A stretch of DNA of 38,218 nt. Origin: an uncultured Porphyromonadaceae bacterium (lineage in GTDB: Bacteria > Bacteroidota > Bacteroidia > Bacteroidales > Muribaculaceae). Of this stretch, positions 6,781 to 38,073 are shown piece after piece (the first letter of the stretch is position 1; each line of letters begins with the position of its first letter). Where the stretch lies: contig CAMWQB010000010.1 of the NCBI GenBank assembly GCA_947176295.1, positions 1 to 38,218 of the forward strand. The letters run 5' to 3'. The notes under the pieces were generated by a model. The model made no database searches and was not told where the DNA came from. It saw only the letters and a program-made list of their open reading frames with translations. The position numbers and the translations under genes are program-made.

Positions 6781-6852
6781 GCTCTGCGGACAGGAGGAGG
6801 GTGTGCCCTACACATTCCATTCTTCTGCATGACGAAATACAAAAACTATAGG

Positions 6853-6900
6853 TTCGGGAGCGGCGTTAATAGTCTAAGGCAACGTCGCCCCCGAATTTTT
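6853..6900 (+). terminator. Intrinsic terminator of pgk
   Basis: The arms 6853-6867 and 6881-6895 (TTCGGGAGCGGCGTT with AACGTCGCCCCCGAA) pair over 15 positions with one A-C mismatch and one G-T pair, followed by five T residues (6896-6900). Its position inside the upstream extension of the next reading frame argues that the next gene starts at 6919. Confidence 0.85.
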
Positions 6901-6918
6901 ATATCCCCAACTATCGAA

Positions 6919-8181
6919 ATGACAGATTTCCCGACCTCCTTTTTTTCGTGGATAAACGACCACCTGTCTGACAATCCCGCCGACTTGCGGCTACGCTTTG
7001 CCGGCAAGCCCGGCCCCGCTGAGGTGGACATTCCTTTTGCCATCCTGCAGGTGGAATGTCGCCGCAAGTGCGCGCGCAAACTTGCCGACACCTTAGCGTC
7101 GTTTCCTCGCTTCGTCTTCCCCACGGCGCTGAGCGCCGAGCAGTGCTCGTCGGACCGCCTTGCGTCCTTCCATGCGTCGCTCGTTCCCGAGGGGGCATGC
7201 ACTGGCGTGGACCTCACCGCGGGGCTGGGGATAGATGCGATGACGCTCGGTCGGCGGGGGCTGGCCATGACCGCTGTGGAGCAGGCGCATGAACTTGCCA
7301 AGGCCTTGCGCTACAACTCCCGGGGATTGGGCGTGGAGGACTTCGAAGTGGTGGAAGGCGACTGCCGCGAGTGGCTGTCGCGTGCTGTGGCCGAGGGGCG
7401 GCGATATGATGTGGCCTTTATCGACCCAGCGCGCAGGAGCGAATCCGGAGGTAGGCTATTCGCCCTGGAGGCATGCTCGCCCGATGTGCTGGCCATGCTT
7501 CCGGATCTGGCCAAAGTGTGCGGGCGGCTAATCGTGAAGGCGTCGCCTATGCTCGATGTGATCCACACGGCCGCAGAGCTTACCCCTCCCGGTGCCACCG
7601 AGCTAATCGCCGCGGGCACGACCACGGAGTGTAAGGAGCTCATTGCGGTGGTGGATTTCCCTTCAGCCGGGACTGCACTTCGGATTCGGAGCGTAACGCT
7701 CCTGCCCGACGGCACGGCGTCGGAATACTCATACACGGTCGCCGATGAGCGCGAGGCGCCCTCAGTAGCTGCCGGCCCCGGCATTGCGCCCGGAATGGTG
7801 CTCTGCGAGCCCTATCCCTCGACGATGAAATGCGGCGCTCACAGGGCCTTGGCTGCGGCTTTCGGTCTCTACGGCTTCGACGCCAACACACGGCTCTATT
7901 ATGCCACCGAGGCTCCTGACGGTTTCCCCGGCGAGAGTTTCGATGTGGTGGACGTGCAGGAGTACGCTTCGAAGAACATCAAGCGCTTTGCCCGGAAATA
8001 TCCTGCGATAAGCGTAACGGCGCGCAATTTCGGGCTTACGGCCGAGGAATTGCGGCGGAAACTGGCCGTCCGCGATGGCGACGGGCGCCTGCGGGTGTTC
8101 GGGCTCACTGCCGCCGATGGGCGCCGATTGCTGATTGTTGGCCAAAATGCAAGCAAAAAATCCGGTACAACCGCGATATAA
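6919..8181 (+). CDS. SAM-dependent methyltransferase, THUMP-like class
   Basis: A 420-aa protein. The central Rossmann methyltransferase has motif I DLTAGLGIDAMTL, the acidic ribose-binding position in TAVEQAHELA, GDCREWL and the post-IV motif DVAFIDPARRSESGGR. The C-terminal third (YPSTMKCGAH ... LTAEELRRKLAVRDGDGRLRVFGL) resembles the THUMP-like domain found in this Bacteroidetes methyltransferase family. The substrate is unknown; RNA is the likely class by family resemblance. The reading frame is open from an ATG at 6829, but that extension contains the pgk terminator, so ATG 6919 (MTDFPTS) is preferred. No good promoter box is seen between the terminator and this start, so read-through from pgk may contribute. 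Confidence 0.82.
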   Translation: MTDFPTSFFSWINDHLSDNPADLRLRFAGKPGPAEVDIPFAILQVECRRKCARKLADTLASFPRFVFPTALSAEQCSSDRLASFHASLVPEGACTGVDLTAGLGIDAMTLGRRGLAMTAVEQAHELAKALRYNSRGLGVEDFEVVEGDCREWLSRAVAEGRRYDVAFIDPARRSESGGRLFALEACSPDVLAMLPDLAKVCGRLIVKASPMLDVIHTAAELTPPGATELIAAGTTTECKELIAVVDFPSAGTALRIRSVTLLPDGTASEYSYTVADEREAPSVAAGPGIAPGMVLCEPYPSTMKCGAHRALAAAFGLYGFDANTRLYYATEAPDGFPGESFDVVDVQEYASKNIKRFARKYPAISVTARNFGLTAEELRRKLAVRDGDGRLRVFGLTAADGRRLLIVGQNASKKSGTTAI

Positions 8182-8223: not shown

Positions 8224-8254
8224 TTGCAAAATCAGCAAAACGCACTTAACTTTG
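8224..8254 (+). promoter_or_regulatory. Orphan consensus promoter
   Basis: TTG at 8224-8226, a 20-nt spacer, then TAACTTTG at 8247-8254 gives a perfect Bacteroidetes promoter. It shares the string TTAACTTTGCA and a following C-G pair with the tRNA-Gln promoter at 37926-37956. No plus-strand protein gene follows; the next gene is on the minus strand, so this promoter appears to drive the small RNA at 8258-8325. Confidence 0.8.
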
Positions 8255-8257
8255 CAT

Positions 8258-8325
8258 CGTGTTTTTCATGGTATAGATTTAAGGTTTGAAAGATTGGTTG
8301 TCGCGACGACAATCAATTTTTTTTT
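8258..8325 (+). ncRNA. Candidate small RNA ending in a strong terminator
   Basis: A predicted transcript of about 65-70 nt starts a few bases past TAACTTTG (8247-8254) and ends in an intrinsic terminator. The stem ATTGGTTGTCG (8293-8303) pairs with CGACAATCAAT (8307-8317) over 11 bp including one G-T, with loop CGA and nine Ts (8317-8325). The 5' part GTGTTTTTCATGGTATAGAT followed by TTAAGG is single stranded by eye. An ATG at 8269 closes after two codons, so it is not a peptide gene. I recall closely similar elements scattered in other Bacteroidales genomes; that memory is unverified. It points toward the 3' end of the minus-strand gene at 8366. The remaining bases of the 8182-8365 gap show nothing else. 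Confidence 0.68.
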
Positions 8326-8365
8326 GTACCTAATGAAATACTCAAGCTTCTCTCAAAAAAGAAAC

Positions 8366-10387
8366 TTAGAGCCCGGTGTCGTGGAAGGTGCGGTAGAGGC
8401 GGGTTGTGGAGATGTCCATGTTCGGGGCGGCTTGCATAGCCTTGTCGAGAAGCCGTTTTGCTTCGGCGGACTTTCCTTGTCCGAGCAGGATGTCGCCTTT
8501 GGCTACGAGCATTGGGGCGTTGTCGGGAAGTCGTCCGAGGCTTTCGTCGATAAGGGGTTCGAATTTGCTGATGTCGGCATTGAGAGCGGTTGCCGCTATC
8601 AGAAGTGCGCCAGTGCAGATGTCGGCCAGAGGGCCTGAGGCGTCGTTGAGAGGGAATACTTCCGCAAAAGTGTCAATGAAGGGAATGGGGCTGACGCCTG
8701 CGGCATGTGTGATGCTCAGAAGAGAGAGTGTGTTCTGCAACAGAGAGGCCATTGACGCGTCGGCAGTGGGAAAGGCGGAGGTGTACGTGCGCAGATAATC
8801 GCGATAAGCACTGATGGCATCGGGGGCGCCGGGACGGAATATCTCGCGCGCGATGCAGATGGTCGAAAACGAGTGATACGAGTCTTTATATTGCTCGGGG
8901 TCTCCGGCGAATAAGTTGAGGCATATCGCCTTATAAGGCTCGCTGATGTGGTCGAAGTCGCTGAAATCGTGTCTTGACAGGAGCGATGCGAGATACATGG
9001 TGGCGACACCGATGGAGGTATTGCCGGAGGTTTTGTCGTCGCCGTATCTTTTGCGGATTTCCTCAGCATAGTCGAGAATGGCTTTCTGGTCGCGGAGCAG
9101 CAGGTCGGGGGAGGAATAGAGATTGTGGAGGCGCTTGTATTCGGAGACCATGACCATTGCAAGCTGTTTTGACCGGTGCTGTGTGAGCGAGGCCGGGCGG
9201 AAGTCGGCGATTTCGGCGAAGAAAGTGTCGATGTCCGCGGGCGAGAGATTGAAGGATTCCGGGTTTATGAGGGCTATGCTGAGAAGGCAGATTCTCAGCT
9301 CGGGGTCTTTATGGGAGAATTCGGAGGCAAGCATCTCTTTGAGTTTCTCGCCCGACACGAATCCTGCGTTTCCCGAAAGGATGGCGGAGGACTGGATGAG
9401 GAAGCTGGCCAGATATTTTTGCGAGGGGTCGCCGTGGCGCAGTGCCCGGCCTGCATATTCGATTGTGGCGGAATGGTCGTCGCGGCCCTGCAGGAATGAG
9501 GCCAGTTCAAGGGCTGCAGTGGCGTCGGTTGTGTCGGCGTCGGCCAGACGTTGCAGGAGGCGTCCCACGCGGGCCATGTTTTCGCGTCCGCCGGCGAGCC
9601 GGAGGGTTTCGATCTGACGCATCACAGTGGTTCGGAGTTTATCTGCATTCGCCCTCTTTTCCTCGGAGGCTTGGCTTATGGCAGCAGCGGCGATGTCGAG
9701 TTTGTGAATGTCGCCCATCTCGGAGCAATAGCTGCCGATGAAGTCGAGTTGGTCGTAACGGGCAATTGCATCGTCGATATTTCCTGCGCGGACAAGGTCG
9801 ATGATTTCCTGCTCGGCGGCGGAGAGTTCGGTCATGTCGATGCGTGCGAAGCGGTCAATGTAGTTTTCGAGTTTGTCGAGCTGCTGCTCGTAGTTTTCAG
9901 TGAGCTCGAGCAGGCTGCGTTGATATTCCTCTTCTTTGAGCTTCCCTTCGGCTCTGAGGCGTGCGAGTGCATCCTGTTCTTTCTTCAGCTGGCGGGCATA
10001 GCTTTGTGATGAGGCCTTGTGGTATGCGTCGCGGATGCGCTTGAAGCGGTCGGAGCGGCACATCAGGATTGTGAAGGGTGTGGCCGGGTTTATGTTCCAC
10101 TGCTCGACGGCTTCCTTGTTGAAAATCTCGTATCCGTTTTTCTCGATACGCCTGACGTTTACTTTCTCGCCGGGATTGAGTGTGAGGAATTCGAGGGTGA
10201 AGCTCCCGTCTTTAGCGGAGACGGTGCTGTTTGCAGAACGGACGTTCAGTTCCACTCCCGCAAGCGGGGTCTTTGCGGCTTTCTCGTTGTATTCCCGGAT
10301 TATGCCTTTCTGGACAGTGCGCCCGGCGGCTCCGAGGGTGGCGCAGAAGAGCGTGAGGAGGAGACAGAGGATAGTTGTAGTTCTCAT
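8366..10387 (-). CDS. Exported 673-aa protein with beta-sandwich, coiled coil and helical repeats
   Basis: I do not recognise a specific family. A signal peptide covers residues 1-21 (MRTTTILCLLLTLFCATLGA). Residues 25-110 look like a carboxypeptidase-regulatory/CNA-B-like beta-sandwich (KTPLAGVELNVRSANSTVSA then KDGSFTLEF). Residues 115-180 are a charged coiled coil (KKEQDALARLRAEGKLKEEE). The remainder is helical with TPR-like stretches (AIEYAGRALRHGDPSQKYLA; the last repeat is MLVAKGDILLGQGKSAEAKR near 640-660). It is probably periplasmic, perhaps a scaffold. It is transcribed from TATCTTTG at 10419-10426, divergent from the redox-protein gene. No terminator is evident on its 3' side. Confidence 0.75.
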   Translation of the reverse strand: MRTTTILCLLLTLFCATLGAAGRTVQKGIIREYNEKAAKTPLAGVELNVRSANSTVSAKDGSFTLEFLTLNPGEKVNVRRIEKNGYEIFNKEAVEQWNINPATPFTILMCRSDRFKRIRDAYHKASSQSYARQLKKEQDALARLRAEGKLKEEEYQRSLLELTENYEQQLDKLENYIDRFARIDMTELSAAEQEIIDLVRAGNIDDAIARYDQLDFIGSYCSEMGDIHKLDIAAAAISQASEEKRANADKLRTTVMRQIETLRLAGGRENMARVGRLLQRLADADTTDATAALELASFLQGRDDHSATIEYAGRALRHGDPSQKYLASFLIQSSAILSGNAGFVSGEKLKEMLASEFSHKDPELRICLLSIALINPESFNLSPADIDTFFAEIADFRPASLTQHRSKQLAMVMVSEYKRLHNLYSSPDLLLRDQKAILDYAEEIRKRYGDDKTSGNTSIGVATMYLASLLSRHDFSDFDHISEPYKAICLNLFAGDPEQYKDSYHSFSTICIAREIFRPGAPDAISAYRDYLRTYTSAFPTADASMASLLQNTLSLLSITHAAGVSPIPFIDTFAEVFPLNDASGPLADICTGALLIAATALNADISKFEPLIDESLGRLPDNAPMLVAKGDILLGQGKSAEAKRLLDKAMQAAPNMDISTTRLYRTFHDTGL

Positions 10388-38002: not shown

Positions 38003-38073
38003 TGCCTTGTGGTGTAATGGTAGCACGTCGGATTCTGGTTCCGCCTGTGAGGGTTCGAATCCTTCCAAGGCAA
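38003..38073 (+). tRNA. tRNA-Gln (anticodon CTG)
   Basis: The cloverleaf folds cleanly: acceptor TGCCTTG/CAAGGCA with discriminator A38073; D stem GTG/CAC with loop AATGGTA; anticodon stem TCGGA/TCCGC with loop TTCTGGT, giving CTG; T stem GAGGG/CCTTC with canonical loop TTCGAAT. The 27-43 pair is T-C, a mismatch at the base of the anticodon stem. CCA is not encoded. It has its own promoter and terminator. Confidence 0.96.

Follow-up and report, generated by a model that had tools for sequence, protein, structure and literature searches.

The window, by which we mean the whole stretch of 38,218 nt analysed here, carries on its plus strand a compact unit of promoter, small RNA gene and terminator. 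The promoter is of the sigma-ABfr type, with a −33 element TTG (8224..8226) and a −7 element TAACTTTG (8247..8254) that fits TAnnTTTG; the spacer between TTG and TAACTTTG, read from the sequence, is 20 nt. The predicted RNA (8259..8326) is about 68 nt long (67-68 nt from the positions of promoter and terminator) and begins with a seed region, R1/R1' (8259..8284). It ends in a terminator stem of 11 bp (8293..8317, with arms 8293-8303 and 8307-8317 and the loop CGA at 8304-8306) and in the nine-T run of an intrinsic terminator (8317..8325), the first T of which also closes the stem. Within the seed region, the frame ATG GTA TAG (8268..8276; ATG at 8268-8270, TAG at 8274-8276) stops after two codons and is not considered a gene. 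An earlier note on this DNA had described the consensus promoter, the two-codon ATG frame, the 11-bp hairpin and the nine Ts, and all of them are in place when the sequence is read.

Upstream on the same strand lies a gene for a THUMP-like protein (6829..8181; PF18096 and PF22013 above their Pfam cut-offs, PF03602 slightly under). Downstream, a gene of 673 aa from the ORF list (8366..10387, minus strand; weak TPR match below the Pfam cut-off) converges on the unit and ends 40 nt beyond the RNA. No plus-strand gene follows the promoter: the upstream gene stops at 8181 and the minus-strand gene ends at 8366. The ORF list also holds a plus-strand frame of 128 aa that starts from a TTG at 8252 and overlaps the converging gene, which we take as a chance frame. 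Two tRNA genes were located elsewhere in the window with Rfam (726-797 and 38003-38073). The pattern TTG-N19..21-TAnnTTTG has ten matches on the two strands of the window, and only the unit at 8224 has a terminator 20-110 nt further on; resampling of the window's dinucleotides into 60 artificial windows yielded no such promoter-terminator unit. The RNA (8255-8330) folds with −22.2 kcal/mol, compared with −11.4 ± 2.5 in 200 shuffles (z = −4.4). In the centroid fold, the R1/R1' stretch is unpaired except for a single helix of 4 bp, which includes one base ahead of the predicted RNA start.

The earlier note had treated the unit as an orphan and had proposed a covariance search against Rfam. That search (cmscan) matches 8259-8326 to the full model (1-71) of RF04319 (BTncRNA_FopS) with 64.8 bits, above the gathering score of 56; the orphan label was wrong, since the family is both named (RF04319) and published (FopS, PMC11697453). 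On this sequence evidence, a small RNA gene of the FopS family lies at 8259-8326. Both the sigma-ABfr promoter and the Rho-independent terminator hairpin that characterise FopS are present, and the RNA has the unpaired 5' seed R1/R1' and lacks R2, which is the FopS pattern. In the available text of the original description, FopS of B. thetaiotaomicron comprises 14 paralogues of 65-70 nt, with sigma-ABfr promoters and the 5' seed R1' (Ruttiger et al. 2025, PMC11697453). According to the same text, the RNA is induced by bile salts and pairs with the start regions of susC-like mRNAs, so that translation is blocked; the RRM protein RbpB binds FopS and antagonises, or relieves, the repression of susC; and the paralogues show no strong sub-diversification, with only few seed SNPs. 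The source genome of the window has six RF04319 matches, three of them over the cut-off. Besides the window copy, these are five matches, of which two are over the cut-off and the weakest has an E-value of 0.58.

The neighbouring family GibS shares the R1 seed, and the window RNA scores 25.5 bits with its model (RF04182). The gathering score of that model is 115, however, and its 142 positions face an RNA of 68 nt in which the middle of the model is absent; in addition, the window promoter is of the sigma-ABfr type, while GibS uses PM2 in the available text of PMC11697453. The Rfam scores rule out a GibS orthologue in place of FopS, and we give this identity practically no chance. A reading as a gene for a short peptide or leader (ATG GTA TTA GAT TTA...), of which the window would hold a broken copy, is also highly improbable. 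It draws on a frame starting MVLDLR that is encoded by at least 78 of 87 copies outside the window's class (class A, below), but the frame varies in length between 2 and 100 codons among the 87 copies, and all 25 class A copies stop after two codons, with the RNA conserved nonetheless. The terminator stem, moreover, covaries as an RNA. Among 26 sequences chosen from the collected copies, 97.1% of cells form standard pairs and both sides have changed in seven of the eleven pairs; each of five measures was reached by at most 1 of 500 shuffles, and sliding the partners by 1-3 columns left 15.9-69.6% of cells paired. For B. thetaiotaomicron, sORFs were excluded by the FopS authors (PMC11697453, available text). 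The peptide reading was discarded on its variable frame lengths, and the covarying terminator together with the inconstant frame indicates that the product of the locus is an RNA.

A copy of RF04319 above the cut-off is found in all 49 genomes collected for the window's genus. Across the order, 247 genomes were surveyed with 19 candidates scored per genome, and at least 55 have a match with E ≤ 0.001, at least 45 of them over the cut-off (these counts are lower bounds). The view of the earlier note that the unit encodes a free RNA of a recurrent Bacteroidales type, and not a peptide, is thus borne out by the RF04319 score, the 49 genomes, the survey of the order, the covarying stem and the inconstant frame; homologous promoter-terminator units, whose absence from related genomes it had named as counting against that view, were found.

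The genus set consists of 115 loci, of which five have no accepted copy and one has three, giving 112 copies; 107 of these have at least 45 nt of upstream sequence. Regular-expression sorting assigned the 107 copies to classes, with per-genome copy counts that are lower bounds. Class A (24 copies), to which the window copy belongs, has a one-base deletion in R1' and a plain TTG at −33. Class C (32 copies) has changed first bases, mostly CAG, and class D (24 copies) has a GAAC...GTT upstream motif or a GC-rich terminator. The remaining 27 copies are termed class B where they bear the palindrome described below (19 copies).

Some loci of the other classes have a distinctive context. Seven class D loci with long flanks (L002, L017, L022, L024, L027, L028 and L034) have the GAAC...GTT motif in common, which resembles promoters of alternative sigma factors. 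Their fopS genes are divergent from an operon of response regulator and histidine kinase, clearly so in six of the seven; at L002, the kinase is present and a longer frame occupies the place expected for the regulator. One locus (L163, G007:C25:18533-19908) holds three tandem class C fopS genes spaced by about 450 nt, each with its own palindrome and promoter. FopS-like stretches also occur in three of 50,697 phage records (MT836368, PQ571285 and MT836359) and in 15 of 72,556 plasmid records, one of which is 1.77 Mb long, and an exact 27-nt 5' end is found in three stretches of viral contigs (L269, L270 and L271).

Class A is present in at least 26 of the 49 genus genomes (25 in the main reading, plus L155). 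Relative to the family consensus in the Rfam alignment, its seed region reads GGUAUAGAU instead of GGUAUUAGAU, and the first 26 nt are identical in 23 of 25 copies. In the GTDB contig collection, 23 stretches have the exact 26-nt form; they come from MAGs labelled Muribaculaceae, Porphyromonadaceae or Bacteroidales. Among 297 genomes of the family, which represent 30 genera, a 23-nt core of this 5' end has a single match in each of 18, all from one genus. Upstream conservation is confined mainly to the two promoter boxes and to A/T positions near −50 and −40; TAnnTTTG is present in 24 of 24 class A copies, and TTG lies within −39..−30 in all 24 copies with at least 45 nt upstream. The neighbours of the window copy recur at only one of the 23 other loci that share its 26-nt 5' end (some loci are short on one side), and among 24 class A loci, the window included, the largest group with shared neighbours has four members. 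It follows that the RNA and its promoter were kept while the surroundings mostly changed.

These surroundings bear on two further alternatives. The earlier note had suggested that the RNA might act through its 3' end on the converging gene, and a cis-acting terminator or antisense element would suit a 673-aa gene that ends only 40 nt past the RNA. The 673-aa protein, however, is matched at none of these 23 loci, several of which end close to the RNA; the neighbours tested are common to one locus in 23, with several loci short on one side; and past the hairpin the minus strand offers only CTTTC and no T-run. The suggestion is therefore not supported, and we discarded a cis role, which appears very improbable, because the neighbours are not common to the loci. 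Somewhat better placed, though still improbable, is a FopS relic, in which the deletion would have damaged the seed of a paralogue that is now transcribed yet idle. The deletion does fall within R1', the target enrichment described below is weak, and one class A copy (L058/L155) has no T-run, so that the lineage can decay. Against this, the same 26 nt are kept in 23 of 25 copies and both boxes in 24 of 24, with flanking genes that mostly differ between species, and an idle relic would not be expected to retain its 5' end and boxes amid such changing flanks. We favour instead a functional FopS lineage with an altered seed. With one U removed, the complement of the class A seed reads CUAUACCAUG and not CUAAUACCAUG; the pairing register is shifted, and class A has probably been retargeted to a partly different set of mRNAs.

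Targets were predicted with four seeds over 909 genes from about 1.2 Mb of the source genome. Gene calls came from a simple script that picks the longest ORF, and the energies cover alternative ATGs; some of the start regions will accordingly be wrong. With the class A seed, 17 of the 909 start regions reach −18 kcal/mol or lower, compared with 8.2 ± 4.0 for shuffled seeds, and 4 of 60 shuffles gave at least the observed count. The corresponding numbers of shuffles are 17 at −16 kcal/mol and 8 at −14 kcal/mol. There is, then, a weak excess of complementarity, at −18 kcal/mol only. The eight susC start regions, compared with the 901 other predicted genes, give p = 0.088 with the class A seed, p = 0.017 with each of the class D and class C seeds, and p = 0.084 with the class B seed (one-sided, uncorrected for four seeds); they thus rank higher with the D and C seeds than with A or B, and are not significantly set apart by the class A seed. 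With the class D seed of the source genome, three of the eight susC genes rank 8 to 10 of 909. The susC gene at rank 10 (L173:5345-8308, on C8) begins about 1.5 kb past the class D fopS gene, downstream on the same strand and with another frame between them. Genes that resemble secreted proteins or lipoproteins by a crude regular expression are not favoured by the class A seed among the 909 genes (p = 0.33), and a class A preference for the starts of a few glycan-enzyme genes in the target lists is anecdotal. The 909 start regions yielded no target that could be named for the window copy.

The genus also appears to lack the protein partner of FopS. Its presence is a property reported for B. 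thetaiotaomicron and belongs neither to the Rfam model nor to the way the family was named. A search for RRM proteins (PF00076, E ≤ 0.01) found none in the 49 genus genomes and was positive for the control, Bacteroides ihuae. A profile built from 11 Bacteroidales RRM domains gave matches in 3 of the 49 genomes, all with E-values of 0.27-0.74, and none in the source genome. Genome incompleteness could mask single RRM genes, but hardly those of a whole genus. In the survey of the order, the 45 genomes whose FopS match exceeds the cut-off include 20 without any RRM match (a crossing of the FopS and RRM surveys by hand, in which the identity of the 45 was taken from E-values and agrees with the tally), which indicates that FopS and RRM proteins are separable. 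The negative RRM searches in the genus make it probable that the window FopS works independently of RbpB. We found no open-access paper on Muribaculaceae that treats a small RNA together with an RRM protein, nor one that treats FopS. FopS is thereby extended from Bacteroides to Muribaculaceae-type MAGs without detected RbpB, which makes FopS function without its antagonist testable.

A second difference among FopS copies concerns their promoters. In what follows, we use the name Cur for the regulator BT4338, which we take to be the same protein. The motif considered is the palindrome ATGTTnTAnAACAT with at most two mismatches, starting 25-40 nt before the RNA. It is present in 51 of the 107 genus copies, in every case starting 31-36 nt before the RNA, and its distribution follows the classes (C, 32 of 32; remaining copies, 19 of 27; A, 0 of 24; D, 0 of 24); it is absent from the promoter of the window copy. 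In the source genome, a FopS copy at L184:871 (C61) bears it, and further examples are found at L012, L013, L227 and L250. Outside the genus, the palindrome is present in 18 of 40 FopS copies hand-picked from the order survey. Of 247 genomes of the order, 19 contain the composite palindrome-TTTG-GTGTTTTTCAT with zero mismatches, and none contains the reversed control. As judged by sequence, it is the same palindrome as wwwTATGTTnTAnAACATAwww, a sugar-utilisation site which the available part of PMC3878776 tentatively gives to the Crp-family regulator BT4338.

Two Crp-family matches in the source genome exceed the cut-off. One is a frame of 219 aa, and 108 nt ahead of its ATG begins a palindrome with one mismatch, an arrangement like that reported for BT4338. 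Palindromes with zero and one mismatch also lie 233 and 186 nt upstream of two of the eight susC genes (L192:1513 and L193:1352, respectively). In total, ten palindromes with zero or one mismatch occur in 1.21 Mb, compared with 2.3 expected from base-shuffled sequence; one is at FopS, and several have no clear context. The palindrome overlaps the −33 region of the FopS promoter, which suggests repression of FopS by Cur. In the available text of PMC11697453, FopS is anticorrelated with GibS, and GibS, as far as the available sources describe it, peaks with mucin and in starvation, the conditions of the largest change in the Cur regulon. Outside the genus, TTG is missing from −38..−28 in 10 of 18 palindrome-bearing copies and in 1 of 22 palindrome-free copies, and this would also fit activation by Cur. 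The FopS authors name an "unknown transcriptional regulator" (PMC11697453, available text), and the fixed palindrome before many FopS copies makes Cur a candidate for it; neither Cur nor BT4338 appears in the main text of that paper, and we found no open-access paper that names FopS together with either. The window copy, with its plain promoter, is probably expressed independently of Cur.

Taken together, we consider it very probable that the window encodes a FopS repressor that would be blind to Cur, carry a shifted seed and act without RbpB. Transcription by RNA polymerase carrying the housekeeping sigma factor of Bacteroidales would start near 8259 and stop at the hairpin and T-run near 8325. 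By analogy with B. thetaiotaomicron, the mostly unpaired 5' end, in which GUUUUUCAU is antisense to AUGAAAAAC, would pair around the start codons of mRNAs and block translation initiation in trans. The U lost from the class A seed would shift the register, so that the targets are probably in part different, and the plain promoter would make expression probably Cur-independent, with an action that probably does not involve RbpB. Family membership, the promoter and terminator, conservation, the seed deletion, the RRM gene not found and the absent Cur-type site are direct observations on the window and its relatives. The family and its mechanism in B. thetaiotaomicron were already known from the available text of PMC11697453; the seed-deletion lineage, FopS in all 49 genus genomes without a detectable RRM protein, and the promoter classes, including that with the Cur-type palindrome, go beyond it.

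A wider reading, which we offer tentatively and regard as possible more than probable, is that FopS is the RNA arm of carbon control by Cur (BT4338) in Bacteroidales. About half of the examined copies would be switched by Cur through the fixed palindrome at −33, probably being repressed by active Cur, and this would free SusC-type transporters when carbon is limiting. The window copy would belong to a second, Cur-blind set, and a third set would be linked to a two-component system; in the window's genus, the network would run without RbpB and use a lineage with a one-base-shifted seed to reach other mRNAs. If true, the Cur-FopS connection would tie small RNAs of this family to the master regulator through which gut Bacteroidales control sugar use.

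This logic has a counterpart in Spot 42 (spf) of enterobacteria, a small RNA under a Crp-family regulator that represses catabolic genes. The likeness applies only to FopS copies with a Cur site; we claim no relation in sequence, and the window copy has no Crp-type site. GibS (RF04182) has the 5' R1 seed in common with the window RNA, but differs in being longer and in having the second seed R2 and the promoter PM2, and the window locus attains 25.5 of the required 115 bits. Compared with FopS of B. thetaiotaomicron, the window lineage has a genus-specific one-base deletion in R1', its genus (49 genomes) yielded no RRM protein, the window copy has no significant complementarity to susC starts, and the copies of the genus form classes with distinct promoters. 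In all other respects compared, namely sequence and structure over the whole model, the sigma-ABfr promoter, a predicted length of 65-70 nt, the 5' seed, the intrinsic terminator and multiple copies per genome, the window RNA resembles the FopS of B. thetaiotaomicron.
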